From a virus: a stretch of 46,033 nucleotides of DNA. Where the stretch lies: positions 1-46,033 of IMG/VR virus record IMGVR_UViG_3300044801_000258. One strand, written 5' to 3'. The notes beneath the pieces were generated by a model. It was not told the DNA's origin and did not search any database. It worked only from the letters and a program-made list of their open reading frames with translations. Shown here piece after piece: positions 1-33,833 of this stretch. The translations under genes were made by a program, and so were the position numbers. Numbering within the stretch: position 1 is the first letter of the stretch; each line of letters begins with the position of its first letter.

Positions 1-127
1 CGCTGCCATCAAGGAATATTTGGACAATCACAACCAGAATCCTCGTGTCTTTGTATGGACCGCCTCGGTCGAACGAATCATATCCAAAGTCGCCAAATGT
101 AAAGAAGCGTTGGGGACACTACACTAG
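1..127 (+). mobile_element. 3' end of IS630-type transposase gene (partial at window edge)
   Basis: Bases 2-127 read in one frame for 41 residues to a TAG stop. The peptide contains WTASVERI and KCKEALGT, the C-terminal signature typical of IS630/Tc1-type DDE transposases. The N-terminal part lies outside the window, so it cannot be decided whether the element is intact. It is directly followed by the prophage and probably marks the left host flank. The element's right terminal repeat was not identified with certainty. Confidence 0.75.
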
Positions 128-201
128 AACAGGCTAGATAAGGCTACAAGCGACAATTTGACAGGATCATGCGAGAGGATCATCGTTTTCGAGAGTTGGG
201 C

Positions 202-645
202 TTAGGACGGGCCTTTGAGGGGGCGGCGATGGCCGGGCACAGGATGGGTTTTAAGATGGTGCCGGGCGTTGAAGCCGCACCCGGCGAGCTCCATGGCGTT
301 CGAGAACTGTGCCTCCAAAATACTCCTCTCATCCAGATCAAGCGTAGACGTCTCCAAGAGATGCTCGAACTGAGCGGTGTTGGTGTCATCAAATTCTTCC
401 GCCATATCAGGCGTGCAATGGATGGCTTTGAGGGAATCGATCTGGATACGGGCTCGGGCGCGGGCGCCGTCTTTCTCAGACTCTGAATTGGCCCATGCGA
501 TGAGGATGCAAAGAGCCGCAACCCCGAGGAGCGAGAGGAAAACTATAAGAGGCGCGCGGCTAGGCTTAAGGCGGCGCCCGCAGTGGCGGCACCGGGTGGC
601 CTGGTCCGAGATGTCTTCCGAAAGGCAGAAACGGCAGGTTTGCAT
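202..645 (-). CDS. zinc-ribbon single-pass membrane protein
   Basis: 147-residue protein with two CxxC pairs in the first 25 residues (CRFC and CRHC), a zinc-ribbon pattern, then one hydrophobic helix (about residues 32-52) and a soluble C-terminal half. The start was chosen at the ATG whose reverse-strand leader carries an AAGGAAGG Shine-Dalgarno five bases upstream; a longer ORF starts eight codons earlier. It lies downstream of the repressor on the same strand, so it may be a prophage-expressed (lysogenic) gene, or a host gene at the left junction. No specific function is recognised. Confidence 0.6.
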   Translation of the reverse strand: MQTCRFCLSEDISDQATRCRHCGRRLKPSRAPLIVFLSLLGVAALCILIAWANSESEKDGARARARIQIDSLKAIHCTPDMAEEFDDTNTAQFEHLLETSTLDLDERSILEAQFSNAMELAGCGFNARHHLKTHPVPGHRRPLKGPS

Positions 646-665
646 TTTACCTTCCTTATATAGAG

Positions 666-1145
666 TCACTTAACCTTGGCGTATTTAAGATCCCTCCATT
701 GGGTGCTGCGCCTGACCAAGCGTTCGCGCTCGGCGCGGAGAGCTTCTTTCGCGCCAGCATGCCCCGCCAGCGCTGCCTCGCGAATCAGCTTCAAGCCAGT
801 AACCGCATCATTATAGTATTCCAACAATTCAGTATCAGGCTGGGGCCCCATGCCGGGGCGCTTCTGATTCACAGGGGATGGTGGAGGCTGCAGGGATTCT
901 CCATGATCCTCTAGCTCCATTGCCCAGTGAATTCTCTTTAGACCTCTCTCTTCGGCGAGGCGGGAAAGTTTTTCAAGATTTCTGCCGCGCGGTGTGCACT
1001 CTCCCGATTCCCAGAATTGATAGGCCCTTACAGATTTCAACCCCAATTCTCTTGCCATCCCGTCCTGGGTCTCATGCAGGAACCTACGTAGGCGCCGAAT
1101 AGTCGGGGCAAATAGTCCGCTGTTAATTTTTACTTTGGCCTTCAT
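666..1145 (-). CDS. XRE-type helix-turn-helix repressor, likely prophage immunity repressor
   Basis: About 159 residues. An XRE/Cro-C1-like helix-turn-helix occupies roughly residues 14-65 (FLHETQDGMARELG, then SVRAYQFWESGE), followed by a charged C-terminal region. It is transcribed leftward, away from the Cro/Ner-like gene at 1212, which is the classic arrangement of a phage lysogeny switch. The ORF is open up to 1223, but an ATG there would put the start inside the divergent promoter and overlap the other gene, so the ATG at 1143-1145 is preferred. The target is probably the repeat cluster at 1158-1211. Confidence 0.7.
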   Translation of the reverse strand: MKAKVKINSGLFAPTIRRLRRFLHETQDGMARELGLKSVRAYQFWESGECTPRGRNLEKLSRLAEERGLKRIHWAMELEDHGESLQPPPSPVNQKRPGMGPQPDTELLEYYNDAVTGLKLIREAALAGHAGAKEALRAERERLVRRSTQWRDLKYAKVK

Positions 1146-1152
1146 TTTTCGC

Positions 1153-1181
1153 TTGACACGAAGAATCTCTTCACGTAGTAT
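1153..1181 (+). promoter_or_regulatory. early rightward promoter, sigma70 type
   Basis: A perfect -35 box TTGACA (1153-1158), a 17-bp spacer and a -10 box TAGTAT (1176-1181) point rightward at the gene starting at 1212, with a predicted transcript start near 1188. This is the only near-consensus promoter noticed in the early region. It would drive the transposition genes, and the operator repeats overlap it directly. Confidence 0.7.
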
Positions 1182-1211
1182 CTCTTCGTTTGAACCTGTA
1201 AATACGTTTAC
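1158..1211. promoter_or_regulatory. operator repeats of the lysogeny switch
   Basis: Inverted arms ACGAAGA (1158-1164) and TCTTCGT (1183-1189) bracket the spacer and -10 region. The octamer ATCTCTTC occurs twice in direct orientation (1165-1172 and 1180-1187), and GAAGA-ATC-TCTTC forms a short palindrome (1160-1172). A second palindrome, GTAAA-TACG-TTTAC (1198-1211), ends at the base before the ATG at 1212. These are plausible sites for the repressor and for the Cro/Ner-like protein; the assignment is inferred from position. Confidence 0.55.
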
Positions 1212-1460
1212 ATGAGTAACCATAACACAAAGCGCAGAGTTCCCAAAGCGACGCGGCGACTGATTCTATTGTCTCCGGGAGCATCAGCCGCAATCGCTCG
1301 AAAGGCGAAATGTAGTCAGGCGCTCGTTTCGTTGATCCTCGCGGAGCAGCGCAACTGTACTGACGGCGTTTGGGAGGCCATTGTGAATTGGGCTGCTGAG
1401 CCTCGAACATCCGTCCTTGCGGAGATGGCGGAACAGGAATTATCCGCCGCGAAGATTTGA
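1212..1460 (+). CDS. small Cro/Ner-like DNA-binding protein
   Basis: 82 residues with a basic N-terminus and a helix-turn-helix-like stretch (ASAAIARKAKCSQALVSLIL, about residues 24-43). It is the first gene rightward from the early promoter and divergent from the repressor, the position of ner in Mu and cro in lambdoid phages. Its likely role is to shut down early or repressor transcription. The ATG follows the palindrome at 1198-1211 and no strong Shine-Dalgarno is visible. Confidence 0.6.
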   Translation: MSNHNTKRRVPKATRRLILLSPGASAAIARKAKCSQALVSLILAEQRNCTDGVWEAIVNWAAEPRTSVLAEMAEQELSAAKI

Positions 1461-1470
1461 GATTCCAGGC

Positions 1471-1722
1471 ATGGCAATTCCAGACGACAGCGAGATTCTA
1501 AGCACGATTTCAGCGAAAGTTCCGCGCTGGGTGGAGGACGAACTCTTGCGTGTTTGCCGGGAAACCGGGCTCATGCTCTCGCAAGCGGTTCGAATCGAAC
1601 TCATAGAGTTAGCCAAAATCACCAAAAAGAATTTCAAGCGCGGCCCAGCTCTAGGACCGTTCCTGGAGCACCTAGAATTTCACTCTCGACAATACGACCT
1701 TTTTTTTGGAAGCAAGAAGTAA
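1471..1722 (+). CDS. small helical protein, early region
   Basis: 83 residues (MAIPDDSEIL...). The segment VPRWVEDELLRVCRETGLMLSQAVRIELIE looks like a ribbon-helix-helix or short helical DNA-binding fold, but the family is not recognised. The ATG at 1471 is ten bases after the stop of the Cro/Ner-like gene, suggesting translational coupling. A longer in-frame ORF reaches back into that gene and is unlikely to be used. Confidence 0.5.
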   Translation: MAIPDDSEILSTISAKVPRWVEDELLRVCRETGLMLSQAVRIELIELAKITKKNFKRGPALGPFLEHLEFHSRQYDLFFGSKK

Positions 1723-1757
1723 ATGACGTAAATGACGGCGGATTGGGCAAGGGCGCA

Positions 1758-1937
1758 ATGAGCAATTTCGCATCGACTTTAGGCCTTTTGGTTTTTGCCG
1801 CGCTGGTGGTTGGCGTAGCGCTCGTAGCCAAGCGGTTCCCCGCGCTGGGGGCCCTCTTGGCGCTGTGGCCGTCGGTCGCCATATTCGTTGGCCTGATTGT
1901 GTGGTTGGTGACGGACTATTTCAGGCCCAGGATTTGA
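1758..1937 (+). CDS. 59-residue integral membrane protein
   Basis: Two hydrophobic helices (about residues 7-24 and 30-50), with a short basic turn between them and a positively charged C-terminus (DYFRPRI). The ATG at 1758 is preferred over an upstream start that would overlap the previous gene by more than 150 bases. Small membrane proteins are common in phage early regions (superinfection exclusion, lysis timing), but nothing here fixes the role. Confidence 0.45.
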   Translation: MSNFASTLGLLVFAALVVGVALVAKRFPALGALLALWPSVAIFVGLIVWLVTDYFRPRI

Positions 1938-1959
1938 GATCTCAAATTGGAGGTTGGAG

Positions 1960-2286
1960 ATGAAAGGGAAAAAGCCTCTTACGCGACGGCAAGAGATCAG
2001 GGCGTTGAGACAGAACATCGCGGAGCTGAAGGACTCGCACCGGGTGCTGCTGTGGAAGGATGTAGTACCACTGATGAAGCGGCTGCCAGTACTCAAGCGC
2101 GCAGAAAAGCTGGCGCGGGCTGAGCGCGCGTTGGTGCGCAGCGTCGAGGAGGATAAGGGAAGCCCCCAGTTGGAGTTGCTGAGTTTCGACATGGCCAGCC
2201 CTCCTGCTGCACCGCCTCCTGCGGGCGATGGTCGGCTCGAAGCCCAGGCCCCGCTGCTGACACAGGCGGAGCGGCTCGGGCAATAG
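1960..2286 (+). CDS. basic helical early protein of unknown function
   Basis: 108 residues. The first 70 are highly basic and helical (KGKKPLTRRQEIRALRQNI onward) and the tail is rich in Pro and Ala. A GGAGG sequence eight bases upstream of the ATG at 1960 is a good ribosome-binding site. It lies between the regulator genes and the transposase. The leader overlaps an imperfect TTGAGATCTCAA palindrome at 1935-1946. Confidence 0.5.
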   Translation: MKGKKPLTRRQEIRALRQNIAELKDSHRVLLWKDVVPLMKRLPVLKRAEKLARAERALVRSVEEDKGSPQLELLSFDMASPPAAPPPAGDGRLEAQAPLLTQAERLGQ

Positions 2287-2317
2287 CGGGGGAACCCCCA
2301 ATTGGAGATTTCGGACA

Positions 2318-4573
2318 ATGGCCGATACGGGTTGGATTACGGTGGAGGAAGCGGCGGAACTGGACCAGATCTCCCTGGTGCAAGCAAAACGGCGGGCGCT
2401 GGGGAAATGCGAGCCTGGCTATGTTTCGCGGTTGGAAGCGAATTCCAGCGGGCGGATGCGGCGCATGGTTTATGTGGCGTCGCTTTCACTCGACGGGCAA
2501 GAACGGCGGCGGGAAAAGCAGGTGTCAGGTGTCAGGTGTCAGGTGTCAGGGCCAGAAGAAGCCGACAGCGACACTACTATACAAATGTTTAGTGGCGCCA
2601 AGAAAAATGGCTCGGGGCAGCTTTCATTTCTCGATCGGACGGAAGAGGACGCGGCGATCGAGGCGGTGAAAGCGAAGCTGGTGAAGACGGCGCCTTCACA
2701 GATCGCGCCACTGCTCGCGCGCTATCGGGCCATCCAGCCGCTCACCAACCACGATTTCTCCGCCCTGGGGCTAGGTAGCAAAACCTCCTACGCGAGCACC
2801 ATGTCGCGGCAGCTTGGCCTGTCGGCGCGGCATTTTCAGCGCCTACGGGAGCGCTACGCAGCCGCATTCGAGAGTTTGGGCCTCGAGGCCGCGATTGAAA
2901 GCCTGGCGCTGAATTCCCCCGGCCCCGCGAAGTGGACCGGATCGCCTCTCGACCCCGCCACGGATGAAGGCCGCTCCAACATTATGTATATCCAGGACTG
3001 CTGGGAGTTCAAGCACCTCACCCGCCGGCAGAGTTACCATGCGCTGAAATTCTACCTTGAGGAAAAACAGAGAGGCACCGGCGGCTCCTGGGTCTACGCG
3101 ATTCCGACCGAGCAGGCTGTTTCAAGATTCATCAACACGCCGCCGCCGGATGGCCTGGGGGGCGACCTGAATCCGCGGCGCAACGGACTGGAGGCGATCA
3201 AGGCCGCAGCGGGCCACCTCGACTGCACCTACGATGACGAGGCTGCGAACGACACCTGGTGCATTGACGAATGGGAGCTGGATGGCGCCTTTTACAACAT
3301 TGAGAAGCGCCGTGAGATCTTCTGGTCGATCTACCTGGTTTCGGTCATTGATGAGCGCACCACGCGGATCCTCGATTGGACGCTGGCTTACCACCTAAAC
3401 GTGGAGACGGTGCTCGATCTGCTCGAGCGCTGCGTGCGCGAGTTTGGGCCTCCGCTTTATCTGCGGTCTGACCAGGCCGGGCATTTTCGAGGTAAGGTCC
3501 TGGGCGGAGGCCGAGCGCCGCTCGGCCCTACGGTCGTGCAATCGCGCGGCAAGTTGCTCGACGCGGCGCTGGGCGCAATGGGGCAGCTTGGCGTGCAACC
3601 AGTCAGCCCGGAAGGGCACAACCCGCGCTCGAATCGAATCGAGCGCATGCACGGTCTCTACGCCGAGCGCGCCCAGGAGGATTTCGGCCCGAGCTGGCGC
3701 GGCTCGGCCAAGAAGGAAATCCATCCGGGCGTCACCGAACGCCAGATGAGCGGGATTGACGAGCGCGTGGCGCGGCATATTAAGGAGCACTGCAAGGCCG
3801 GGACTTCCGGGCCGCTTATCCTTTCTACTGCCGACGGGGAGCGCATCGTGGGCAAGTGGGTCGAGGAAATCAACCTGGCCGACACCGACGCCAAGGGCTG
3901 CCACGGCATGTCGCGCCTGGCGGCCTATAAGGAATTCTGCGCGCGGCGCGAACGGCCCACGGCGGAGATGGTCGATATGGCGTTTGCCGAGCGCGGCGAG
4001 CATGTAATCCTGCCGGGCGGCATTGTCGAGTGGCGCGATAAGCTACGCTATTCGAGCCCGGAGCTGATCGGCCGTCCAGGCGAGTGCGTCGAGATGCTGC
4101 GCTACCGGGACGACACCTCGCGGATCATTGTCGAGCTGGATGGCCAGCTTGTGATCGCCGAGCGGCGTCCCCTGGTGGGGCGCAACACGCCTGGACTGCT
4201 TAGCGAGGAAATCGAGAAGCTGGCGCGGATCAGGAAGCAGGTGTCAGGCGCCAGGTGTCAGGCGCCAGGCATTGAAGATTCCAGATTTCAGGTTTCAGAC
4301 CAAGATTCCCCGGCGGGGGCCCACGGCGAGAAAGCCCTGAAGAAAACTCATAATGAAACCCCACCAACACAGCCCACCAGCGCCAACCCGTCGGGAATAG
4401 ATGTAGGGGCACGGCTCGCCGTGCCCACGCACGATGCGGAAGCACATCCGGAGATTTCGTCTGTGGAGTGGATGGCGGCCCGGGTCGAGCACGGCTATCG
4501 GCCACCTTCGAGCGATAACGTTCCGCCCCTGCACGAGCTGGAGGAATTTGACCCCACGATGGAGGAATTGTGA
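2318..4573 (+). CDS. MuA-type DDE transposase
   Basis: 751 residues. It would cut and join phage ends during integration and replicative transposition. The core (about residues 300-450) reads CIDEWELDG, then YLRSDQ, then RIERMHG. The second and third catalytic acids are D385 and E442; the first is D317 or D322. The spacing closely matches MuA. A C-terminal beta-barrel-like and basic tail region follows. The gene has absorbed repeat DNA in frame: a GTGTCAG array at 2519-2550 (VSGVRCQVSG), a palindrome at 3509-3527 between D385 and E442, and arrays at 4238-4312 and 4403-4426. The stop overlaps the next start. Confidence 0.9.
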   Translation: MADTGWITVEEAAELDQISLVQAKRRALGKCEPGYVSRLEANSSGRMRRMVYVASLSLDGQERRREKQVSGVRCQVSGPEEADSDTTIQMFSGAKKNGSGQLSFLDRTEEDAAIEAVKAKLVKTAPSQIAPLLARYRAIQPLTNHDFSALGLGSKTSYASTMSRQLGLSARHFQRLRERYAAAFESLGLEAAIESLALNSPGPAKWTGSPLDPATDEGRSNIMYIQDCWEFKHLTRRQSYHALKFYLEEKQRGTGGSWVYAIPTEQAVSRFINTPPPDGLGGDLNPRRNGLEAIKAAAGHLDCTYDDEAANDTWCIDEWELDGAFYNIEKRREIFWSIYLVSVIDERTTRILDWTLAYHLNVETVLDLLERCVREFGPPLYLRSDQAGHFRGKVLGGGRAPLGPTVVQSRGKLLDAALGAMGQLGVQPVSPEGHNPRSNRIERMHGLYAERAQEDFGPSWRGSAKKEIHPGVTERQMSGIDERVARHIKEHCKAGTSGPLILSTADGERIVGKWVEEINLADTDAKGCHGMSRLAAYKEFCARRERPTAEMVDMAFAERGEHVILPGGIVEWRDKLRYSSPELIGRPGECVEMLRYRDDTSRIIVELDGQLVIAERRPLVGRNTPGLLSEEIEKLARIRKQVSGARCQAPGIEDSRFQVSDQDSPAGAHGEKALKKTHNETPPTQPTSANPSGIDVGARLAVPTHDAEAHPEISSVEWMAARVEHGYRPPSSDNVPPLHELEEFDPTMEEL

Positions 4574-4851
4574 AGGCATATTCCTGGTGTCGGGTGACCG
4601 ACGGCCTGGGCGGCCACAGCGTGGCGCGGATCCGCGTGGCGCTCGAGGGCGCGACACATAAGACGCTGGCCTCCTGGCGGGAGATGAAGCGGCGGATTGC
4701 GGCGCTTACGGACGTCGAGTTGGCGCTGGCCATGGAGTTCGAGCGCATGGGACGGCGCCGCACGGAGCACTTGAAGCTGCTCGATATCGAAATGCGGCGG
4801 CGCGCGGGGGATGTGGAGGACCGGAAGTTCAAGGTGGAAACGAAATTATGA
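4570..4851 (+). CDS. helical protein coupled to the transposase, unknown function
   Basis: 93 residues, starting with a GTG that overlaps the transposase stop (GTGA), which indicates translational coupling. The body is helical and strongly charged (ASWREMKRRIAALTDVELAL..., then EFERMGRRRTEHLKLLDIEMRRR). No family is recognised. Its place between the MuA-like and MuB-like genes suggests a role in transposition or early regulation. Confidence 0.6.
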   Translation: MKAYSWCRVTDGLGGHSVARIRVALEGATHKTLASWREMKRRIAALTDVELALAMEFERMGRRRTEHLKLLDIEMRRRAGDVEDRKFKVETKL

Positions 4852-5108
4852 ATTGCGTACCTATCGATTTCGGCAATGGCGTGACAGGGTTTGTATGCGG
4901 ACGCTCGCGGCGCCGCAAGTCGTGCGCGAGTTGCGGCCGGCCAGGAACTATCCAGTGCGATTATCCGGTCAGGCGCCTCATAGGGCTTCATCTTACCGAA
5001 AAGCTGCAGACCTGCGACCGCTGGCAGTGCGACGGATGCGCCACGCAGATCAGCCCCAACATGCATTACTGTAAGCCGCACGCAGCGACGGGGCCGCCCA
5101 AACTGTGA
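4848..5108 (+). CDS. cysteine-rich small protein, probable zinc binder
   Basis: 86 residues. The start ATGA overlaps the previous stop. Cysteines pair as CASCG, CDRWQCDGC and a late C..H (HYCKPH), consistent with two zinc knuckles. It belongs to the tight 2318-5108 transposase operon. The function is unknown. Confidence 0.55.
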   Translation: MNCVPIDFGNGVTGFVCGRSRRRKSCASCGRPGTIQCDYPVRRLIGLHLTEKLQTCDRWQCDGCATQISPNMHYCKPHAATGPPKL

Positions 5109-5141
5109 ACTGAAAACTGACGACTGAAGACTGAGGACTAA
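5106..5141. repeat. degenerate AACTGA/GACTGA tandem array before the MuB-like gene
   Basis: A run of near-copies of a 7-8 bp unit (GAACTGA, AAACTGA, CGACTGA, AGACTGA, GGACTA) fills the gap and ends just before the next start. Related arrays lie at 11393-11412, 14959-14990, 41361-41390 and 41912-41948. Confidence 0.6.
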
Positions 5142-5147
5142 TAAAGC

Positions 5148-5900
5148 ATGCCTACCTATTTTCCAAAGCTCAGATCGGCGCAAGTGGTCGAGAAGGCGCT
5201 TGACCGGATGGTCGAGCACGAGATCATGGTCGCGATTGTAGGGCCGGCTGGAGTGGGCAAGACCGTGCCGCTGCAGCATTGGCGGAAGACGCGGGGAATC
5301 CCTCACGTCTGGATCGAAGCCACGCTGGGCGGCTCGCTTTCGGCGCTCGTGGGCGCGCTGGCGGAAGGCGTGGGCATCGGGGCGGGCGGCTCGCTCGACG
5401 CCAAGTCGGTGAAGATCGCCGAGACCCTGGCGCTGGCGCCGCGCGCGGTGATTATCGATGAATCGGACTTCCTGCAAAATACCGCGCTCAACCGCGTGCG
5501 GGCCATCTACGACCGGGCGCAAATGATTCGCGACGACGATGACGGCCGCGCCTTCCCTTTGGCGCTGATTGGCACCGAAGCGCTGCGCACGCGGCTGAGG
5601 CGCGATGAGGAACGCGCCGAACAGATGCTGCGGCGCATCGGCGAATTCGATACGGTCCCCAAGCTTAACCAGGCGGAGTGCGTGGGGATCCTCGAAGCGC
5701 GATGGGGGCTTGATGGCAAGCATGACGTGGGGCTGGCCGCCGGCTCGGCCGAAGAGCTGCTGCGGCTTTCGCGTGGCTCCATAGGCTGGCTCAACAAGAT
5801 CGTGCCGCTCGCTATCGATTTGGCGAAGCGCGACGGCAAGACCATTACGCCGCAGATCGTGCGCGCGACCGCGCGATACCTTGTGGGAGTCGAAGCGTGA
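5148..5900 (+). CDS. MuB/TniB-type AAA ATPase, transposition target-selection protein
   Basis: 250 residues. Walker A GPAGVGKT is at residues 32-39 and Walker B AVIIDESD has D104/E105. An arginine-rich AAA C-terminal part follows (RLRRDEERAEQMLRRIGEFD) and the lid has the LSRGSIGWLNKI pattern of the AAA_22/TniB group. In Mu the equivalent protein binds target DNA, delivers it to the transposase and provides target immunity. The gene follows the transposase operon after a 39-bp repeat-filled gap and has only a weak ribosome-binding site. Confidence 0.85.
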   Translation: MPTYFPKLRSAQVVEKALDRMVEHEIMVAIVGPAGVGKTVPLQHWRKTRGIPHVWIEATLGGSLSALVGALAEGVGIGAGGSLDAKSVKIAETLALAPRAVIIDESDFLQNTALNRVRAIYDRAQMIRDDDDGRAFPLALIGTEALRTRLRRDEERAEQMLRRIGEFDTVPKLNQAECVGILEARWGLDGKHDVGLAAGSAEELLRLSRGSIGWLNKIVPLAIDLAKRDGKTITPQIVRATARYLVGVEA

Positions 5901-5928
5901 CGAAATGGTGAATAGCGAATGGTGAATT

Positions 5929-6150
5929 ATGAACAATCAAAAAGCAGAAGGCAGAAAGCGGAAGGCGCAGCCGGATCGCCTTCGCATATTGAAGCAGTTG
6001 GCTATATCTCTTCCCATCCCGGCCTGGGAATACGTTTTGGAGGCTCTAGCCGTAAAAGCAGCCATGGACTCCGTGGGAGACCGTCTCGATTTGCGGGCGA
6101 TCAATACCGGCGCCCTAATTCGCCTTGCTATACAGAAGAATGGTGAGTAG
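5929..6150 (+). CDS. 73-residue protein with a repeat-derived N-terminus
   Basis: The first 15 residues (NNQKAEGRKRKAQPD) are encoded by an AGCAGAAGGCAGAAAGC repeat that also occurs, in antisense orientation, in the signal peptides of the genes at 21813 and 22362. The remainder (RILKQLAISLPIPAWEYVLE...) is helical and looks like genuine coding sequence. The preceding 5903-5930 is a GAATGGTGAAT-type array. The function is unknown and the true start could be further in. Confidence 0.45.
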   Translation: MNNQKAEGRKRKAQPDRLRILKQLAISLPIPAWEYVLEALAVKAAMDSVGDRLDLRAINTGALIRLAIQKNGE

Positions 6151-6163
6151 TGAATGGTGAACC

Positions 6164-6604
6164 ATGAAAATTCTTGCCGTGGGCCCTATTTCGTATGAAT
6201 TCAATCAGGCCATAGGGGCGCTCATCAAGCTTGGCTGCCCGGCCGATAGTTTGTGGCTGGCGCACAACCTGGATACCGCCAACAAGCTCTTGCCGGATGC
6301 TGATGCAGTGCTCTCCGCGGACACTTTCCCCAGCCACGCGGGGCGCGCCTCTGAGCCCGCCGAAACGCGGCAAAACAATTGGGCGGCGCTGGCGCTCAAA
6401 TGCATGCGGGCGAAGAAGCGGTTCGTGCTGCTGACCGGAGACGAGCGTCTGATGCTGCGTATGAACGCGGTGGCTAAGGAATCCGAGCTCGGCACGGGGC
6501 CCAGCCGCCCGTTTGCCGCCTTTCATAGCAGCCACGCGCAGGAAGCGTGCCAGGCGCTGCTAGCGGGATCGGGAGATCGGGCCATCGAGCCATCGGGTCA
6601 TTGA
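6164..6604 (+). CDS. hypothetical early phage protein
   Basis: 146 residues. The N-terminus MKILAVGPISYEFNQAIGAL begins as a beta strand and turn like a Rossmann-type fold. Later segments (DADAVLSADTFPSH and KKRFVLLTGDERLM) alternate strand and helix. No family is identified. The last ten residues (SGDRAIEPSGH) are encoded by an ATCGGG-type repeat array that continues past the stop to 6640. The start follows a GAATGGTGAACC array that may supply a weak GGTGA ribosome-binding site. Confidence 0.55.
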   Translation: MKILAVGPISYEFNQAIGALIKLGCPADSLWLAHNLDTANKLLPDADAVLSADTFPSHAGRASEPAETRQNNWAALALKCMRAKKRFVLLTGDERLMLRMNAVAKESELGTGPSRPFAAFHSSHAQEACQALLAGSGDRAIEPSGH

Positions 6605-6653
6605 GTCATCGGATCATTGGCTGACTGAGTTAAAGAATAAAGGGAGAGCGACT

Positions 6654-7019
6654 ATGGCTGAAGAGGATTCCAAAGCGATGTGGAGCGATCTGGTGAACGC
6701 GGAAAGATACGGCGCCAGGCGCGCGGTGAGGCCGGTGGCTGTAGGGCCGAACGGCGTTCGGCCATGCACTGACGAGGCGATCCTGGACTGCGTGCGGCTG
6801 ACCGTATCCCATCAGGAAACCGGCGCGCAAGCGAGCTATCTCCGCGAAGATGCCGTCAGAGGTAACATCGAGGCGGCCTATAAGCGGGGCCGCGCGGACG
6901 AGACCACGCGCCTCCGGCGCATTCATCAGGTCGACCGGCTATTCGCCTGGTGTTTCCTGGCGACCACCGTGATCCTGCTGGGCGTTGTGCTCGTCTACGT
7001 TATTTTCGGAGGCGGCTAG
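6654..7019 (+). CDS. small protein with a C-terminal membrane anchor
   Basis: 121 residues, preceded by a good AGGGAGAG ribosome-binding site. The soluble N-terminal part is interrupted by a palindromic repeat (6741-6763) translated as VAVGPNGVRPC. The C-terminal 30 residues form one hydrophobic helix (LFAWCFLATTVILLGVVLVY) ending in GGG. It probably sits in the inner membrane with its N-terminus in the cytoplasm. Role unknown. Confidence 0.55.
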   Translation: MAEEDSKAMWSDLVNAERYGARRAVRPVAVGPNGVRPCTDEAILDCVRLTVSHQETGAQASYLREDAVRGNIEAAYKRGRADETTRLRRIHQVDRLFAWCFLATTVILLGVVLVYVIFGGG

Positions 7020-7021
7020 CA

Positions 7022-7207
7022 GTGGCCGAGCCCTACAACAGCGCCCCGCCGAGGCCGTTCGAGCCGGTGGAGTCAATTCCACTCGCGGAGGCTGTGCTTT
7101 GCGCGAATTGCAACTGCATCACGCGCGCAAAGAACGGCCACTGTCTGGTCTGCCAGAGTCGCAGCATTGTCAATCTGGCGACCATTTTGGATCGCGAGGC
7201 ATGGTGA
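7022..7207 (+). CDS. 61-residue zinc-ribbon protein
   Basis: A GTG start two bases after the preceding stop opens a 61-residue ORF. Two cysteine pairs (CANC and CLVC) about 18 residues apart fit a zinc ribbon. Its TGA stop overlaps the ATG of the next gene by one base, so it is part of a coupled series of small early genes. Function unknown. Confidence 0.5.
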   Translation: MAEPYNSAPPRPFEPVESIPLAEAVLCANCNCITRAKNGHCLVCQSRSIVNLATILDREAW

Positions 7208-7725
7208 TGGAGTGCTTTTATTGCGTGCAGAGCGGATATCGAGGCTCGTTGGCGGCGGCGCTCGTTGACGACCGGCCAGTGTGCAGGGTCCACTTGCCGG
7301 ACCACAGCTTCCCGGTCCCGACTAAGGGCCCCGGGAGACAGAAGACGAAGGAGGAAATCACAATGCCGGCTAGAAAGATCGATCTAGAAGAATTGCGAAG
7401 GAGATTCAGCGGGGATAAATCCGCGATTGACTTGGCGGCGGAAATGGGCGTTAGGCCTGCGGTAATACGCCACGCCCTGGGAACTTTGGGCCTCAAGGCA
7501 AGAGCCTGCCGTGGGCGGCCCAAATCGGTCCAAACCGCGCAGCCGAAGGCTGCCATCGTGAAGGCAGTTCATTCGCGGGTTACGCAGACAGCGCAGATTC
7601 CGGAGGCCTCGGCGAACGGCCAGCCCAAAGCCCGTTGCCGCGTGGCGATGTTCGAGCTCGAAGGTTCCGAGGCGGCAGTGTTGGCGGCGGTAGAGGCAGT
7701 GAAAGCGGCGCTGGAGCGCAGATGA
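7207..7725 (+). CDS. zinc-finger plus helix-turn-helix protein, possibly two in-frame products
   Basis: 172 residues from the ATG at 7207. The first part has CFYC and later CRVHLPDH, a treble-clef-like Cys/His set. The second part (from residue 53, ATG at 7363) has a helix-turn-helix-like segment (AIDLAAEMGVRPAVIRHALG), then a linker and a C-terminal helix. A strong AAGGAGG lies eight bases before the ATG at 7363, so a shorter DNA-binding product starting there is likely, either alone or together with the long form. The stop overlaps the next ATG (ATGA). Confidence 0.5.
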   Translation: MECFYCVQSGYRGSLAAALVDDRPVCRVHLPDHSFPVPTKGPGRQKTKEEITMPARKIDLEELRRRFSGDKSAIDLAAEMGVRPAVIRHALGTLGLKARACRGRPKSVQTAQPKAAIVKAVHSRVTQTAQIPEASANGQPKARCRVAMFELEGSEAAVLAAVEAVKAALERR

Positions 7726-8258
7726 ATGTAGGGGCGAGCGGCGCTCGCCCTGGGCCGAACGCCCCGATCAGATCGGGGCCCTACGGGGGCAACATGGCGG
7801 AAAAGATTCCCGAGCATCATCGTTTTGATTTCTCTCCCCAAGGCGATCCTCTGCTGCTGATCGAGGGGGTCATCGCCAAGCGCCGGGGCGAGGCTTTGGC
7901 GATTTCCATCGAGGGCATCGCCATGGAGTTGTGGGCCTACGAGTGGTCCTGTTGCGTGTCTGAAAAAAAGGGCTTCCCCGTGTATCCCCACCGGGCGAAC
8001 CTTCAACGCCTCATCAAGCAGGCGGTGCGGGCCCTGCGGCGCAAAGGGAAGAAGATTGGCAGCTCGCGCGGATCGAAACACGCCCCGCCGGGATACTACA
8101 TGATCACAACCTCCGCCGAACTCGCGAAGACGGTGGCGCCGCTCGTCCGCCAGGCGATTGACGAGCTGGGCACGGTGGAGGCTCTCACCGGGAAGAATTT
8201 CTATACCGCCGAGCTAGCGGGACAGCAGAGGCTGTTCGCGGTGGAGAACAGGGACTAG
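7722..8258 (+). CDS. probable winged-helix DNA-binding protein
   Basis: 178 residues from the ATGA overlap at 7722, or 154 from the ATG at 7794. Between the two starts lies palindromic repeat DNA (7729-7790) read as VGASGARPGPNAPIRSG, so the repeat may have been inserted behind the original start. The core (ANLQRLIKQAVRALRRKG and GYYMITTSAELAKT) looks like a winged-helix domain used for DNA binding, followed by a helical tail. The role is unknown; replication or regulation is plausible from its early position. Confidence 0.5.
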   Translation: MNVGASGARPGPNAPIRSGPYGGNMAEKIPEHHRFDFSPQGDPLLLIEGVIAKRRGEALAISIEGIAMELWAYEWSCCVSEKKGFPVYPHRANLQRLIKQAVRALRRKGKKIGSSRGSKHAPPGYYMITTSAELAKTVAPLVRQAIDELGTVEALTGKNFYTAELAGQQRLFAVENRD

Positions 8259-8327
8259 GGAATAGGGAACAGGGAATAGGATCATCGGGTCATTTGAGAA
8301 TTATAAATGGTGAATGGTGAATGATCC
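8247..8327. repeat. mixed GGGAATAG / ATCGGGTC / GGTGAAT arrays
   Basis: The end of the previous gene and the following gap consist of three different degenerate arrays in a row: GGGAACAGGGAATAGG, ATCATCGGGTCATT and AATGGTGAATGGTGAAT. Each type recurs elsewhere in the window. Confidence 0.6.
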
Positions 8328-8350
8328 GGCAACCCTGGAGGAGAGAAGCG

Positions 8351-8608
8351 ATGGAAACTCATTTCAGCCATCCAAGCAAAGAAGTTACTCAGGCACTGAT
8401 TCGCCTTACAGACGCGCTTTGCGAATGGGAGCGAAACACCGGTAGACAATCCGCGCTTATCCTAAGGGAAGAGGGTGGTTTTGTCTTTCGCGCGGTGAGC
8501 GGCAAGCCAGATCCGAGTGTCACTTGGCAGAGTGACGCTGAATTCACAGCGACTATTTTAGGGGCTTATATACTTAAGGGAATTATATATTTAACTTCCT
8601 TGGAGTAG
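8351..8608 (+). CDS. small early protein whose 3' end is replaced by a cassette insertion
   Basis: 85 residues from the ATG at 8351 (GGAGGAGAG ribosome-binding site). The last 16 residues (from GAYILKGIIYLTSLE) are encoded by the terminal repeats of the two nested cassettes, because the outer cassette inserted after codon 70 (base 8560). Joining 8560 to 9792, after the right flanking repeat, restores the frame for six more residues (DSQGSS) and a TGA at 9810-9812, giving an ancestral protein of about 76 residues. Base composition is more AT-rich than in neighbouring genes. Function unknown. Confidence 0.6.
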   Translation: METHFSHPSKEVTQALIRLTDALCEWERNTGRQSALILREEGGFVFRAVSGKPDPSVTWQSDAEFTATILGAYILKGIIYLTSLE

Positions 8609-9009
8609 TAGATGGCTGATTGGAAAACAGTTAGATACGATCCTAATTGGGAAGAAAAACTCGACCCGGAAATCATTCCGCTCTGTGATGCGCTCAATGA
8701 GGCCGGGTTTGTCACAACGTCTTCTTGTATTGGACATGGAGTTTGCTGGCCGCACGTTTGGTTTGAGCACAGCACGGATGAGCGTATCGAAAAGTTAGCT
8801 CGGCTCGTAAAGGTAACCGAATTAGGCGATTACCGGCCTTATTTTTCGATGTGGCAAAAAGAGATTCTCACTGAAGGCTATGCGTGGTCTGTCGAGATTC
8901 ACCTCAACGATGTGTATTCAGACACGCCAAGGGCAGTCGCCCGTGAAGCCGAGATATCGGCTGTGAATAGCATGGCTCGGGTGATACGGAAGTTAACTAT
9001 ATAGGTCCC
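8578..9009 (+). mobile_element. TIR cassette E2, nested in the left terminal repeat of E1
   Basis: 432 bp. The left end starts GGGAATTATATATTTAAC and the inverse of the right end starts GGGACCTATATAGTTAAC, with 19 of the first 22 positions identical. It is flanked by the 8-bp direct repeat ATACTTAA (8570-8577 and 9010-9017), which is part of the E1 terminal repeat. Removing E2 and one copy of ATACTTAA restores the E1 left end. It carries a single gene (8612-9004) and no transposase. Confidence 0.85.
8612..9004 (+). CDS. passenger protein of cassette E2, unknown function
   Basis: 130 residues. It has a conserved-looking CDALNEAGFVTTSSCIGHG segment (about residues 25-43), then PHVWFEH, a long helical middle and a C-terminal helix. 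The SC.GHG pattern resembles small uncharacterised phage and bacterial proteins; no activity is known to me. A CTTGGAG ribosome-binding site lies upstream. The final codons and TAG stop (KLTI then stop) lie in the right terminal repeat of the cassette. Codon use is more AT-rich than in the phage genes around it. Confidence 0.7.
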   Translation: MADWKTVRYDPNWEEKLDPEIIPLCDALNEAGFVTTSSCIGHGVCWPHVWFEHSTDERIEKLARLVKVTELGDYRPYFSMWQKEILTEGYAWSVEIHLNDVYSDTPRAVAREAEISAVNSMARVIRKLTI

Positions 9010-9034
9010 ATACTTAACTGCCCTAGGTGAATGA

Positions 9035-9778
9035 ATGAGTTGTGGACGCAAACTCGGGCCGTATGACTGCTGCTCGGTGGTCTGCGGCGATTGCCTGGAA
9101 CTTATGAAGGCGCTGCCTGATGGGTGCGTCGATGCGGTCATTACTGACCCGCCGTATGGGGCCAATCTGGGGAAGCACTTAGGCGCATCTGATATGCGTA
9201 CGCGCCACGTTCTCCGCAAGGGCACTGGTTATTGCGAGTATGACGACACGCCGGAGAACTTCGTTAAGTTGATTATCCCGCGCGTGAGCATGGCCGTGCA
9301 GAAGGCCGTCCGAGCCCTTGTATTTTGCATGGGCAGCAATATTTCTCTGCTTCCGAAGGCCGATGCGCTGGGTGGTGTGTACGTGCCAGCAGCCTGCGGC
9401 AGGAGCCGATGGGGATTTACCTGCTTCATGCCGTGCGCTCTTTATGGAACGGCACCTATGCTGCATCTCGGCTCAAAAGCTACAGCCATCACAAGCTCTG
9501 ATGTGGCCGAGCCAAACGGCCATCCTTGCCCTAAACCTGAGAGTTGGATGTCATGGGCTGTTTCTCTCGCATCATGGCAAGGCGAGACCATCATCGACCC
9601 CTTCCTGGGCAGCGGGACGACGGCGGTGGCGGCGCTCAAATTAGGGCGGCACTTTTTGGGCTTTGAGATCAGCGAGGAATACTGCCGCATCGCTCGCGAG
9701 CGGATCGCGCTGGTCGAGGCGCAGCCAAATCTTTTCGAGAAGAAAGCGAAAGTGGAGCAAGGGGAGTTAAGTATATAA
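9035..9778 (+). CDS. DNA methyltransferase (DPPY type), passenger of cassette E1
   Basis: 247 residues. The catalytic DPPY is at residues 38-41 (VITDPPYG), and the S-adenosylmethionine site DPFLGSGTT (about 188-196) is followed by FLGFEISEEYCRIAR. The order, catalytic motif first and FxGxG last, is that of beta-class amino-methyltransferases (N6-adenine or N4-cytosine). No restriction partner is present, so it is an orphan enzyme that could protect phage DNA or modify regulation. It starts just inside the left cassette end with no promoter of its own, and its TAA stop is within the right terminal repeat. Confidence 0.88.
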   Translation: MSCGRKLGPYDCCSVVCGDCLELMKALPDGCVDAVITDPPYGANLGKHLGASDMRTRHVLRKGTGYCEYDDTPENFVKLIIPRVSMAVQKAVRALVFCMGSNISLLPKADALGGVYVPAACGRSRWGFTCFMPCALYGTAPMLHLGSKATAITSSDVAEPNGHPCPKPESWMSWAVSLASWQGETIIDPFLGSGTTAVAALKLGRHFLGFEISEEYCRIARERIALVEAQPNLFEKKAKVEQGELSI

Positions 9779-9816
9779 GCCCCCTATTTTAGACTCTCAG
9801 GGGTCGAGCTGAGAAA

Positions 9817-9838
9817 GGGAATCAAGTATATAAATCCC
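9817..9838. repeat. solo terminal-repeat copy of the cassette family
   Basis: The inverse of this stretch reads GGGATTTATATACTTGATTC, closely matching the right end of cassette E3. No partner left end with flanking duplication was found nearby, so it may be a decayed remnant or half of an older element that once carried the gene at 8351. Confidence 0.5.
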
Positions 9839-9893
9839 AATGACCCGATCGCCCGATGACCCGATGACCCGATCTCCCGACCCTCGCCACCAG
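9839..9893. repeat. ATGACCCGATC tandem array
   Basis: Degenerate 8-9 bp units (ATGACCCG, ATCGCCCG, ATGACCCG, ATCTCCCG) precede and may run into the next gene. They belong to the most abundant repeat family of the window. Confidence 0.65.
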
Positions 9894-9899: not shown

Positions 9900-10241
9900 A
9901 TGGAAGAGGTCGCGCGGCTGTACAAGCGCTACAACGACGAGCTGCCGCCGCCGGACATGGGGCGGACCGCCAAGGCGCTACACGAATTCCTGCGGGCGAA
10001 TCCGCGCTGGCCGCTCAAGACGATTCAGCGCGCCATGAGAAATCGTTTCTTTTCGCAAGGCATCAACTTTTCCGAAGCGCCCTGGATGTGGCTGAAGTAC
10101 TTGCCCAGCTATGTGGCCGATCCGCTCGATAAATACAAACGGCCCATGCGCGGCAAGGGCAATGCGCTGTTTGCGTGGTGGGAGGAAGAAATCAGAAAGG
10201 CATCGGGAGATCGGGTCATCGGGCCATCGGATCATTTATGA
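9900..10241 (+). CDS. hypothetical early phage protein
   Basis: 113 residues from the ATG at 9900, the first start outside the upstream repeat array (an ATG at 9840 would translate the array itself). Helical, basic-aromatic sequence (HEFLRANPRWPLKTIQRAMRNRFFS, then APWMWLKYLPSYV). The last ten residues (SGDRVIGPSDHL) are translated from an ATCGGG array. The stop overlaps the next start as ATGA. No family is recognised. Confidence 0.55.
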   Translation: MEEVARLYKRYNDELPPPDMGRTAKALHEFLRANPRWPLKTIQRAMRNRFFSQGINFSEAPWMWLKYLPSYVADPLDKYKRPMRGKGNALFAWWEEEIRKASGDRVIGPSDHL

Positions 10242-10771
10242 AACCACAGACCCTCAAGGCGATGCACGCGGAATGGAGAAAACTTTCCGCTGGCTTGGCC
10301 TGCGAGCCGGCTGAGGGTGAGACGCAAAAGCAAGCCGAGCGAAGTGTCCGGCTCGACTGGACAAACGTCAAGCTGAAAAAACCGCAGGGATTTTTCACCT
10401 CCTGGAATCAGTTGACCGAAGGCCAGGCGCGGCGGCTCATCAAGCTCATGCGCGAAGAGTCGGGCGATGGGGCGCGCTACCGCGCCATGCGGATCGCGGA
10501 ACTGGCTTGCGAGCTTTGGGGTGGGCGGCAATGGGATGATTTCCTGTGCACGTGCCTGGGCGAGCGCTTTCACGTCGGCGATCCACGCGAGCTCTCTCCC
10601 GACCAGGCGCACATCATCATGGAAGAACTGCAATCGAGAATCGCCAGGCGCGATGGCCTGACGATCGAGGACGTGCGGAAGCGGTTCAGCAAAAAGGTGT
10701 CAGGTGCCAGGTGTCAGGTGCCAGGTTCGACAAACAAAATCACGCCGGAATCGCCGGATGTGGCAGTGTGA
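10238..10771 (+). CDS. early protein in the position of the Mu GemA-like regulator
   Basis: 177 residues from the ATGA overlap. The middle (WNQLTEGQARRLIKLMREE and ELACELWGGRQWDDFL) is helical and resembles the general layout of GemA/DUF1018 proteins of Mu-like phages, with an LT.GQ..L segment, but the match is weak. Near the C-terminus a GTGTCAGGTGCCAG array is translated as VSGARCQVPG, the same tail seen inside the transposase. The role is unproven. Confidence 0.45.
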   Translation: MKPQTLKAMHAEWRKLSAGLACEPAEGETQKQAERSVRLDWTNVKLKKPQGFFTSWNQLTEGQARRLIKLMREESGDGARYRAMRIAELACELWGGRQWDDFLCTCLGERFHVGDPRELSPDQAHIIMEELQSRIARRDGLTIEDVRKRFSKKVSGARCQVPGSTNKITPESPDVAV

Positions 10772-18117: not shown

Positions 18118-20859
18118 ATGAACCGAGGCAGGAACGGCAACGGAAACTTCTTTCGCGGCATAGGCGCTCCTGTTGCGCTTTTGGACGCGCCTGCCGCGAG
18201 GACGAAGGGCGCACGGCCAGGGCGCGAATCGAAGGCGTCCGAGCCGGACTATCGCGCCCTGGCGCTGGCCGAGGCTCCGGGACGGAGCAAGATTCCTCGC
18301 TCCGCTCGGAATGACAGGATTCCGCCGAACGCGGAGAACCCAGCCGATTTGTTCCCCAGCGCGCAGATTCCCTTGCCGACCTACCAGGAAAAGCCCGTGG
18401 CCCCGCCGGCGATCAGCGAGGAAGAAAAACGCCAGGCGGAGCGCCAGGCCAACCTAGATCAGCGCACCCTGGGGCTTTCCGGCACCGCCAACCTGATGGG
18501 CTTTCTGCGCGATTTAGGCGAGTCCAACGCCGCTTTTCAGGGACTCCGCGCCATGGATATTTACGAGAAGATGCGGCGCGAGGATGCTACGGTGGCGGCG
18601 CTGGAAGCGGCGATCAAGCTCCCCATACGCGGCGCGGAATGGGACTTGCTTCCGGGCGTGGAAGAGAGCGACCCAGGCTACGCGCTGGCCAAGAAAATAC
18701 GCGACGAGTGCTGGGAGAACCTGAAGGGCGGGCTGGAATCGACCACCGAGTCAGGCTCGCATACGACGCAGACTTTCGAAAGCGTGATTGAGAATTTGCT
18801 GCTCAGCCCGATTTTCGGCTGCTCCGCGCACGAAGACTTGTGGGCGCCCGACGCCGACAAAAACCAGATCCGGCTGCGAGGCCTCCAGCCGCTGCTGCCG
18901 CGCACCTTCTACCAGTTTCTTCCGGAAGCGGACGGCAACACGCTCAAGACCCTGATCCAGTTTGGCTATCGCGGGGCGCTGGTGCAGATCCTGCCGGTGC
19001 CGGCGTCGAAGATTTGCCTGACTACGTTCAATCGCGAGGGATCGTACTTTTACGGCCGGTCGATCCTGCGCGCTGCGCACATGGCCTGGAAGTTCAAGCG
19101 GCAGCACATGGTAATCAATGCGATCGGCGCGGAAAAGAACCGAATCGCCGTGCCGACGATTATACAAGGTCCAAACGCGAGCGAGCTGGATAAGGCAGCG
19201 TCCTGGGTGTGGGTGGAAAACCTTGCGGCCAACGAACGCACCGGCCTGTCGCTGCCTAACGGCTGGGTGTTCAAACAGACCGGGATCGAAGGCCGCGCGG
19301 TTGATCTGCTCGAAGACATCCGCCTTTATGACGAACAGATTCTCGATGCCGGCCTGGCGGGATTTTTGTATGTGGGGAAAAATTCGATTGGCGCGCGGTC
19401 GCTGGGCGACACAAAGCTGAACTACTTTTTGATGAGCGAAGAGGCCCTGGCGCGCATGATTGCGGACGTTATGACCTCCACCACGATTCGGCGCTGGGTG
19501 GACTGGAATTACGATCTCAAGGGCGACCAGAAGAACCTCTATCCTCGATTACGCTGCGCCAACATCTGCGTGGTCAACGTGATGGACATCATCGCGTCGC
19601 TCAAAGACCTGGCGAAGTCGGATGTAGACTGGCTGCAAACCTCCGACGAGCGCGATAACTGGCTGGCGAAAAAGCTGGGCGTGCCGCTGAAGACCAAGGA
19701 AGGCCGCGTAAAGTACGCGCCCATTATCGAGCGCATCCAGGAGATGGAAACGGGCACGCAGGATATTCCAACGCAGTCGCCGGAGGGCGGGCCGGAATCG
19801 GGTGATCGGAAGATCGGGAGGTCGGGAGAACAGAAACCCGCAGCGGGCGCCCCTGCGCCCCTTCCTGCCGGGGCGACGAAGCCTGGCGACACGTCGAAGG
19901 TTCTGCCAACCGGGCGCACGATTATGCCCGCCAAACAACGCGCGGCCCAAGCGGTAGCAATGGCCGGGGAGATCACCCGATCACCCGATCACCCGATCAC
20001 CCGATCTGCCCGGATCCGCGACCAGGTTTCTCCGCTCTGGCAGCATGGCGATCCGGCGCATTTGAAGAACGTGCACACGGATGAGCTGCACGTCGACTTC
20101 GCAGCCCACCTGGCGGCCATGGAGCGCGGCAAGACTGCGGTGGCAGGGGCGTTCGATCGCTCCAAGCCACGCTTGATTCGGGCGGCAGCGAAGACTTTTG
20201 CGGCGGCGCTCAAGAAAGGCAAGAACCTTAATTCCGCCGCGCCCGAGCACGATGTCGGACTCGAGAACGAAGTGGCGGGAATCCTGAACGTGGCGCACCA
20301 GGCTGGATTCGAGGAAGCGCGGAAGGAGCACGCTCGGCTGGTGGCGACGGGAAAGTCGCGATACCCCGATCCGTTGCATCTGAGCGATGCCGAAAGGCCG
20401 GTAGCACAGGTTTTGGCTCCACAACTTCGGGCGGAGATCTCCGTCCAGGATGTGATCGCGGATATCGCGCAGGCGGCCCGCAAGGCGGCCCTGGACCTGG
20501 CCGCAGGCAACGCAGGCCGAGCGCCGCTCGGCCCTACGGAAGAGGAACTTGCGGACGAGATTTATTCGCAGGCGGCCGGCACGGCGTATGTGGACGAGGG
20601 GATCGAACGCACGGCGGCGGAAGCGGCGAACGAGGCATTTCGCGGCGGGCGTAGCAGCGCTTTCACAGAGATCGTGAAGGCGCTCGAGGCGGCGGGTGTG
20701 ACGCCGCGCTTTTTCCGCGTGGCCGTGCTCGACAAGAATGTTTGCGGGAATTGCGAAGCGGCGGATGGCCAGGATGTGGATCCCGACCAGGACCTGTCGG
20801 CGATCTGCGACGGCCAGGACCTCTGCCGGTGCCAGGTGGCCGAGGGAGGGATCGGGTGA
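18118..20859 (+). CDS. portal (DUF935) fused to Mu F-type head-morphogenesis domain
   Basis: 913 residues. Residues about 95-555 match the Mu gp29 portal family (DIYEKMRREDATVAALEAA; KAASWVWVENLAA; SIGARSLGDTKLNYF). Residues about 640-910 match the SPP1 gp7/Mu F family, ending in TSSAFTEIVK-like helices and a Cys set C876xxC879 with C903xC905 (DKNVCGNCEAADG). In Mu these are separate genes. The joint (residues about 560-630) is a complete intergenic-type ATCGGG repeat unit read in frame (19796-20006). The N-terminus also contains repeat-derived sequence (SKIPRSARND), and a palindrome lies at 20515-20533. Confidence 0.82.
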   Translation: MNRGRNGNGNFFRGIGAPVALLDAPAARTKGARPGRESKASEPDYRALALAEAPGRSKIPRSARNDRIPPNAENPADLFPSAQIPLPTYQEKPVAPPAISEEEKRQAERQANLDQRTLGLSGTANLMGFLRDLGESNAAFQGLRAMDIYEKMRREDATVAALEAAIKLPIRGAEWDLLPGVEESDPGYALAKKIRDECWENLKGGLESTTESGSHTTQTFESVIENLLLSPIFGCSAHEDLWAPDADKNQIRLRGLQPLLPRTFYQFLPEADGNTLKTLIQFGYRGALVQILPVPASKICLTTFNREGSYFYGRSILRAAHMAWKFKRQHMVINAIGAEKNRIAVPTIIQGPNASELDKAASWVWVENLAANERTGLSLPNGWVFKQTGIEGRAVDLLEDIRLYDEQILDAGLAGFLYVGKNSIGARSLGDTKLNYFLMSEEALARMIADVMTSTTIRRWVDWNYDLKGDQKNLYPRLRCANICVVNVMDIIASLKDLAKSDVDWLQTSDERDNWLAKKLGVPLKTKEGRVKYAPIIERIQEMETGTQDIPTQSPEGGPESGDRKIGRSGEQKPAAGAPAPLPAGATKPGDTSKVLPTGRTIMPAKQRAAQAVAMAGEITRSPDHPITRSARIRDQVSPLWQHGDPAHLKNVHTDELHVDFAAHLAAMERGKTAVAGAFDRSKPRLIRAAAKTFAAALKKGKNLNSAAPEHDVGLENEVAGILNVAHQAGFEEARKEHARLVATGKSRYPDPLHLSDAERPVAQVLAPQLRAEISVQDVIADIAQAARKAALDLAAGNAGRAPLGPTEEELADEIYSQAAGTAYVDEGIERTAAEAANEAFRGGRSSAFTEIVKALEAAGVTPRFFRVAVLDKNVCGNCEAADGQDVDPDQDLSAICDGQDLCRCQVAEGGIG

Positions 20860-27551: not shown

Positions 27552-27652
27552 GAATCGGGAGATCGGCAGATCGGGAGATCGGGAGACCAGCAGGGCAATA
27601 GCGCTTTGCGCCCTTTGTTCACCCGATCAGCCGATCACCCGATCTGACTTCT
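27551..27652. repeat. inverted ATCGGGAG array
   Basis: ATCGGGAGATCGGCAGATCGGGAG, then a short AGGGC...GCCCT loop hairpin, then CACCCGATCAGCCGATCACCCGATC. Occupies the full gap and ends about seven bases before the next ATG. Confidence 0.65.
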
Positions 27653-30450: not shown

Positions 30451-30523
30451 AGCGGCCATGGAGCTCGCCCTGGCGGATGATGGGCAGGAGCCGGAAGTTC
30501 ATGTGGAAGATATTTACTGGTAG
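30332..30523 (+). CDS. overlapping T-like chaperone extension
   Basis: 63 residues (LLAAAGQLGRIYGRLPVEVL, then NWRINEAAMELALADDG) in the +1 (equivalently -2) frame relative to the G-like gene. This is the frame in which the sequence looks protein-like. It can be reached by a programmed frameshift near CGAAAACC (30350-30357), or from an internal ATG at 30332 or 30341. The overlap of 119 bases is typical of G/GT pairs. Confidence 0.6.
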   Translation: MSFMAANENLLAAAGQLGRIYGRLPVEVLSQPVANWRINEAAMELALADDGQEPEVHVEDIYW

Positions 30524-30554
30524 GGAACAGGGAACAGGGAATAGGGAATAGAGA
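30523..30554. repeat. GGGAACAGGGAATAG array
   Basis: Four degenerate 7-bp units immediately upstream of the tape-measure start; related arrays at 8247-8280 and 41890-41911. Confidence 0.6.
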
Positions 30555-33771: not shown

Positions 33772-33772
33772 C

Positions 33773-33833
33773 CGTAGGGGCACGGCTTGCCGTGCCCTCA
33801 TCGAAAGGGCACGGCTTGACGTGCCCCTACTGA
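33773..33833. repeat. double GTAGGGGCACGG palindrome (unoccupied cassette target)
   Basis: GTAGGGGCACGGCTTGCCGTGCCC, a TCATCGAAAG core, then a second GGGCACGGC..GCCCCTAC palindrome. It is nearly the same as the sequence that, at 34267-34556, is interrupted by cassette E3. Confidence 0.75.

Follow-up and report, generated by a model that had tools for sequence, protein, structure and literature searches.

The window, by which we mean the whole stretch of 46,033 nucleotides analyzed here, is a 46-kb virus record of a Mu-like phage, and it encodes a terminase and a portal protein in addition to a MuA-like transposase and a MuB-like protein (Table 1). Its positions 1–8000 had no DNA match among GenBank phages. 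An end-like motif was present in seven copies in the window, compared with 0.06 copies expected from shuffling. Many gene junctions of the window carry a 7- or 8-bp tandem repeat in three to six copies, for example at 2519–2550, 6568–6617, 8246–8280, 9836–9880, 19971–20006, 27554–27586, 30521–30556, and 41912–41947. The units of these repeats differ (CAGGTGT, ATCGGGTC, GAATAGG, GATCACCC, TAGGGAA, and TGAAAGC), and the repeats may be a pointer to the host lineage.

Table 1. Mobile elements, their parts, and phage transposition genes in the window
Feature	Positions	Strand	Remark
MuA-like transposase	2318-4573		
MuB-like protein	5148-5900		
ORF interrupted by E1, first part	8352-8560	+	possible E0 cargo; whole ORF 76 codons
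E1 target duplication, left copy	8553-8560	.	CTATTTTA
E1	8561-9783	+	DNA methyltransferase cassette, interrupted by E2; 783 bp after removal of E2
E1 left terminal repeat, outer 17 bp	8561-8577	+	rest shifted to 9018-9024 by E2
E2 target duplication, left copy	8570-8577	.	ATACTTAA; within E1 end
E2	8578-9009	+	432-bp cassette with one 130-codon gene, inside E1 left end
E2 left terminal repeat	8578-8599	+	GGGAATTATATATTTAACTTCC
E2 cargo ORF	8612-9004	+	130 aa, weak TYW3-like match
E2 right terminal repeat	8988-9009	-	
E2 target duplication, right copy	9010-9017	.	ATACTTAA
E1 cargo ORF	9035-9778	+	247 aa, N6/N4 DNA methyltransferase
E1 right terminal repeat	9762-9783	-	
E1 target duplication, right copy	9784-9791	.	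CTATTTTA
ORF interrupted by E1, last part and stop	9792-9812	+	
Lone right terminal repeat	9817-9838	-	GGGATTTATATACTTGATTCCC; probably of left-truncated E0
E3 target duplication, left copy	34294-34301	.	ATCGAAAG
E3	34302-34525	+	224-bp cassette
E3 left terminal repeat	34302-34323	+	GGGACTTATATAGTTAACTCCC
E3 cargo ORF	34348-34512	+	54 aa, ends in QGS-stop inside right repeat
E3 right terminal repeat	34504-34525	-	
E3 target duplication, right copy	34526-34533	.	ATCGAAAG

The 22-bp terminal repeats of E1 and E2 have the consensus GGGAATTATATACTTAACTCCC; the inverted ends of E1 are perfect over 17 bp, and those of E2 are related, with 84% complementarity over 25 nt. A preliminary description of this DNA had proposed that E1 and E2 are nested cassettes, and the inverted ends and exact 8-bp duplications of both were confirmed. 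Excision of E2 together with one copy of ATACTTAA, which had been claimed to rebuild the left end of E1, indeed yielded a 783-bp element with 23 matches in 24 positions between its ends. The gene content also agreed with the cargo described for the pair, a DNA methyltransferase and a 130-residue protein without a transposase. The E1 methyltransferase has intact DPPY and FLGSGTT motifs, and its stop codon lies within the right repeat (ELSI-stop). In the group formed by this enzyme (window 9035–9778) and its relatives in L252–L257 (L numbers are our handles for the sequences compared), the N-terminal ~42 and C-terminal ~45 amino acids were near-identical and the middles unrelated, a pattern as if target-recognition domains had been swapped between conserved flanks. 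The final codons and stop of the E2 cargo ORF likewise lie within the right repeat (RKLTI-stop). Free-standing homologues of the E2 cargo were found in L249–L251, with 77% identity in the best segment of L249, and DNA homology to them faded ahead of the repeat-encoded C-terminus. The ends were absent beside the relatives of the E1 and E2 cargo in other phages, and the presence of such free-standing relatives suggested that cassettes capture ordinary phage genes.

The order of insertion given in the preliminary description was phage gene, then E1, then E2. This order held, with a likely earlier insertion before it: judged from the layout of the site, the "phage gene" that E1 entered was probably an older cassette, E0, that has lost its left end. 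Excision of E1 in silico restored a 76-codon ORF with its stop 26 nt before the lone right end, and because this ORF and end have the layout of other cassettes, E1 probably jumped into E0. No left end of E0 was found in 8150–8400, where no match exceeded 13 of 22 positions. A possible 7-of-8 target duplication of E0, AATGATCC/AATGACCC, lies in low-complexity sequence and was not counted. The third cassette, E3, had been missed in the preliminary description. It is inserted within a large palindrome, GTAGGGGCACGGCTTGCCGTGCCCC / GGGCGCGGCAAGCCGTGCCCCTAC (34264–34301 and 34534–34556), and a unit similar to this palindrome is repeated at 33771–33835.

Relatives of these elements were collected with an 18-base end pattern, which occurred in 78 stretches in IMG/VR, and with a variant pattern, which occurred in at least 120, and elements were called by pairing inward-facing ends with matching flanking 8-mers. 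In the first IMG/VR set, 53 paired elements had the same 8-mer on either side; with bacterial genomes and transposase-selected loci added, there were 124 elements (118 distinct sequences), and a second scan added 41 new ones. In total, IMG/VR and GTDB genomes contained approximately 160 distinct elements with matching 8-mers; the sets were selected by one exact end, and several related phages may enter the count repeatedly. Direct repeats of exactly 8 bp flanked 77 of 107 nearest end pairs, compared with 0.7 expected for repeats of at least 8 bp with shuffled partners, and 51 of 72 pairs in the second scan. The target sites were 84% AT with the pattern NWWNNWWN, and their flanks were of ordinary composition. 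Each of the first three end positions was G in at least 98% of the ends.

Full-size elements with the same ends were mostly 1.5–3.3 kb long and contained a transposase gene and passenger genes. Their transposase consists of an N-terminal Zn ribbon and an ISXO2-like DDE domain and was assigned to the IS1595 family by both Pfam and NCBIfam; in L061, L063, and L074, PF12762 matched with E values of 1e-40 to 1e-46 and PF12760 with 1e-10 to 1e-12, and NF033547 scored above its cut-off. The preliminary description had named IS1595 as one candidate family for the transposition and had suggested a search for a full-length element with the same ends and a transposase; the elements found bear out both points. 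The end consensus of cassettes and full-size elements was nearly identical, the main difference being at position 16 (A versus G). IS1595 elements have terminal inverted repeats starting with GG or GGG and AT-rich 8-bp target duplications; the ends and targets collected here agree with both, and the duplications of E1–E3 are exact. The published member ISApl4 (PMC12561309) has GGG-starting ends and AT-rich 8-bp duplications, and a description of the family (PMC8101967) agrees. There was no IS1595 transposase gene in E1–E3 or anywhere in the window, which makes them derivatives and not insertion sequences. They combine the ends of an insertion sequence with a passenger gene and no transposase, and a cognate full-size insertion sequence with the same ends exists, as in a mobile insertion cassette (MIC). 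The earlier suggestion of passenger-only elements of this kind was supported by the many different passengers found between the same ends without a transposase, a recurrence that had itself been proposed as a check.

The two forms were unequally distributed. Of the 49 distinct elements that the first virus scan gave, 43 were without a transposase (46 of 52 including the window), compared with 12 of 35 in the genome scan (Fisher p 3e-7). On phage contigs ("phage" follows the IMG/VR classification, and some contigs may be proviruses), most elements were transposase-free single-gene cassettes, of which 70 were found. Among 45 virus records with cassettes, fragments included, just 9 contained an IS1595 transposase relative, so the helper is unseen for most of them. 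Several records contained two to four elements each, and in L074 cassettes lie beside a full-size element. Bacterial contigs contained three MITE-like elements of 163–173 bp (L117 4046–4218, L126 78–250, and L147 4225–4387), which have these ends but little space for a gene; two of the copies, identical to each other, come from a single Oligoflexia bin. A 3.6-kb transposase-free end pair in another bacterial contig (L160 1751–5382), whose right end is weak (four mismatches), encloses a protein of 1025–1116 codons that looks restriction-modification-like by eye.

An empty site, also proposed earlier as a check, was found for the C5-methyltransferase cassette of L040 rather than for E1 or E2: the gene that this cassette splits is intact in its L223 and L225 homologues, whose alignment spans the junction with no gap. 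For L123 an uninterrupted paralogue was present on the same contig. The one E1 neighbor searched for an empty site, the protein of 10175–10771, had no relative in IMG/VR. Related cargo was found at different targets in L038/L042 (91% DNA identity), L008/L016 (80%), and L039/L057 (75%), as were full-size elements in L223/L225 (96%) and a 1561-bp element in L140, L201, L202, and L238. A Dam-type gene was common to the cassette of L027 and the full-size element of L205 (73% over 462 bp). In these genome comparisons, the empty sites and the related cargo at different sites show that the elements are mobile, and from the same observations we infer that the MICs are mobilized in trans.

The phage elements were 170–2406 bp long with unrelated cargo. 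Gene calls and orientations were taken from a home-made ORF scorer. In the first phage set, the stop of the main ORF lay no more than 45 nt from the right end in 37 of 45 elements, and 20 of the 45 ORFs stopped inside the right repeat, at a distance of 5 or 13 nt from the end; as a result, unrelated proteins end in ELSI, KLTI, or GS. Most start codons were 30–55 nt from the left end, and a ribosome-binding site was often present. The leader ACAGCGGAATCAGYGGGTT-ATG preceded two N6/N4 methyltransferases, a D12 methyltransferase, and Mom, the leader ACAAGTAAACAAAGGAGATA-ATG preceded a Dam-type enzyme and four unknowns, and a third leader family preceded three more cargo genes. Similar leader pairs numbered 21, compared with 0.2 in shuffles. 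These leaders common to unrelated cargo imply that cargo is sometimes exchanged inside a preserved left frame. A hybrid promoter at the left end, with TATACT of the repeat as the -10 and a -35 supplied by the target, was not supported, since the -35 would fall immediately beyond the duplication, where the flank profile is GC-rich.

DNA modification was prominent in the cargo. The 43 ORFs of the first set included five N6/N4, four Dam, two MT-A70, two D12, and two C5 methyltransferases and one Mom, together with one TnpB and a DUF1643 protein, and the 21 ORFs of the second set included five N6/N4, one Dam, one C5, and one Mom. Provided that no protein belongs to two families, the five Pfam methyltransferase families or Mom accounted for 24 of 64 cargo ORFs (~37%), compared with at most 6 of 126 neighboring genes on the same contigs (5% or less), a background that is an upper bound, N6/N4 and D12 occurring once each among the 25 of 67 families listed. 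Mom, a DNA-modification family of phage Mu, was in two cassettes (L022 11961–12588 and alignment A4 of the second set). The TnpB-type protein (Cas12f-like, 371 aa, L029 2157–3334) lies between IS1595 ends, an IS605-transposon nuclease in a different vehicle. The passengers of full-size phage elements were mostly other small genes, with three methyltransferase matches in 45 ORFs.

Between cassette copies whose dS was not saturated, dN/dS was 0.05–0.11; by this measure, the cargo is under purifying selection. Cargo was co-directional with phage genes in a ratio of 35:5 (p 1e-6), with 16:3 in a replicate and 45:6 (p 2e-8) for pooled well-covered ORFs, whereas transposase-bearing phage elements were oriented 17:14 (Fisher p 0.003). 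Ten of 40 cassettes were inside called genes, compared with 22.8 expected from AT-matched sites. Selection after insertion and insertion preference would leave the same orientation and gene avoidance in these data. Together, orientation, selection, and gene avoidance fit genes that are used by the phage and transcribed from outside.

We consider it very probable, on the strength of these comparisons, that E1–E3 are non-autonomous MICs of an IS1595 subgroup, mobilized in trans and kept as phage gene cassettes. The transposase would come from a full-size relative within the cell but outside the cassette, in the host, a prophage, or a co-infecting phage, and would act in trans on the 22-bp imperfectly palindromic end repeats, inserting the cassette at AT-rich 8-bp sites that it would duplicate. 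In each cassette a single gene would be preceded by a ribosome-binding leader of its own and would stop at the right repeat; the cassette would be retained mainly between phage genes and in their direction, a bias shown for the set. Because a cassette so placed lies between phage genes in the same direction, phage transcription would read through it, and DNA-modifying cargo would likely benefit the phage by allowing escape from host restriction. Cargo may be exchanged by recombination between cassettes, or by transposition with the left end of one cassette and the right end of its neighbor, for which nests such as E0/E1/E2 would supply material.

Cassettes and full-size elements have the same ends, and the Dam-type methyltransferase common to L027 and L205 could come from full-size IS1595 elements that lost their transposase and left a passenger useless to the phage. 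That the cassettes are such plain deletion remnants is unlikely, since full-size phage elements mostly carry other small genes, with the few methyltransferases counted above, and since co-direction, purifying selection, enrichment in DNA modification, and common leaders are not expected of junk. Common leaders beside the left end indicate that cargo is swapped in a common frame at least sometimes, as would be the case if the repeats were exchange points for homologous recombination between phages and not transposon ends. Recombination, however, cannot make the insertion-specific 8-bp duplications seen at 77 of 107 pairs, and the empty site is ungapped; this reading is very improbable. The duplications contradict recombination as the main process, though it may be a route of cargo exchange.

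The duplications also bear on the mover. Mu duplicates 5 bp of its target, and although the window encodes MuA-like and MuB-like proteins, the duplications here are 8 bp, and it is an IS1595 gene that lies between the same ends in the full-size relatives. We therefore regard movement by the phage's own Mu-type transposase (2318–4573) as extremely unlikely. Compact single genes with a stop beside the boundary recall gene cassettes of the integron type, which a tyrosine recombinase inserts, a reading to which we give almost no credence, because integron recombination does not produce inverted repeats at both ends with variable 8-bp duplications and because the full-size relatives encode a DDE transposase. 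Like integron cassettes, the phage elements are exchangeable compact single genes, probably expressed from outside. They differ in having a DDE transposase as the probable mover, inverted repeats, and 8-bp duplications, with no attC site or array and without the site-specific recombination free of target duplication by which integrons work.

We class E1–E3 as transposase-free MIC-type derivatives of the IS1595 family; both MICs and transporter insertion sequences are already known. Transporter subgroups of IS1595 with passenger genes were described by Siguier et al. 2009, as cited in PMC3129680. They are like the present system in their Zn-ribbon and DDE transposase, GGG ends, AT-rich 8-bp duplications, and passengers, and unlike it in that the window elements have no transposase. 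PMC3129680 also cites De Palmenaer et al. 2004 for MIC231 of IS231. In MIC231, too, transposon ends without a transposase surround passengers and movement is presumed to occur in trans. MIC231 belongs to an IS4-type family in Bacillus cereus, whereas the present cassettes derive from IS1595, are carried by phages, and have mostly one gene, often for DNA modification, with common leaders. The mycobacteriophage mobile elements MPME1 and MPME2 (Sampson et al. 2009, cited in PMC3203893) are likewise very small phage elements with short inverted repeats and no recognizable transposase. Each MPME is a conserved ~440-bp sequence with a single ORF, whereas here cargo and length vary widely and the helper family is identified. 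The literature searched, which included few subscription papers and is not proof of novelty, contained no account of these ends or of phage cassettes of the IS1595 type. Among GenBank phages, the transposase had just three relatives, all distant, and the leader plus end never matched in full, which may explain why the system has gone unnoticed.

The cassettes recur in dozens of other environmental phages and seem to form a mobile gene supply shared among viruses. On a broader reading our opinion is evenly balanced: that they constitute a modular system derived from IS1595, in which genes are swapped within a fixed frame of end repeats, ribosome-binding leader, and repeat-encoded stop, and a pool spread across unrelated phages is moved in trans by the transposases of co-resident elements and expressed by read-through, with DNA-modification and other small accessory genes as its specialty. 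The gain of single accessory genes ("morons") by phages, at new positions and in the absence of homology, has long called for an explanation, and the usual answer is "illegitimate recombination." The cassettes are a defined vehicle, with a known transposase family, ends, target preference, and exact insertion scars, so that a simple search of sequences is enough to count individual gains of genes and to place them in order. The preference for DNA methyltransferases and Mom as cargo suggests that these cassettes carry anti-restriction genes from phage to phage.
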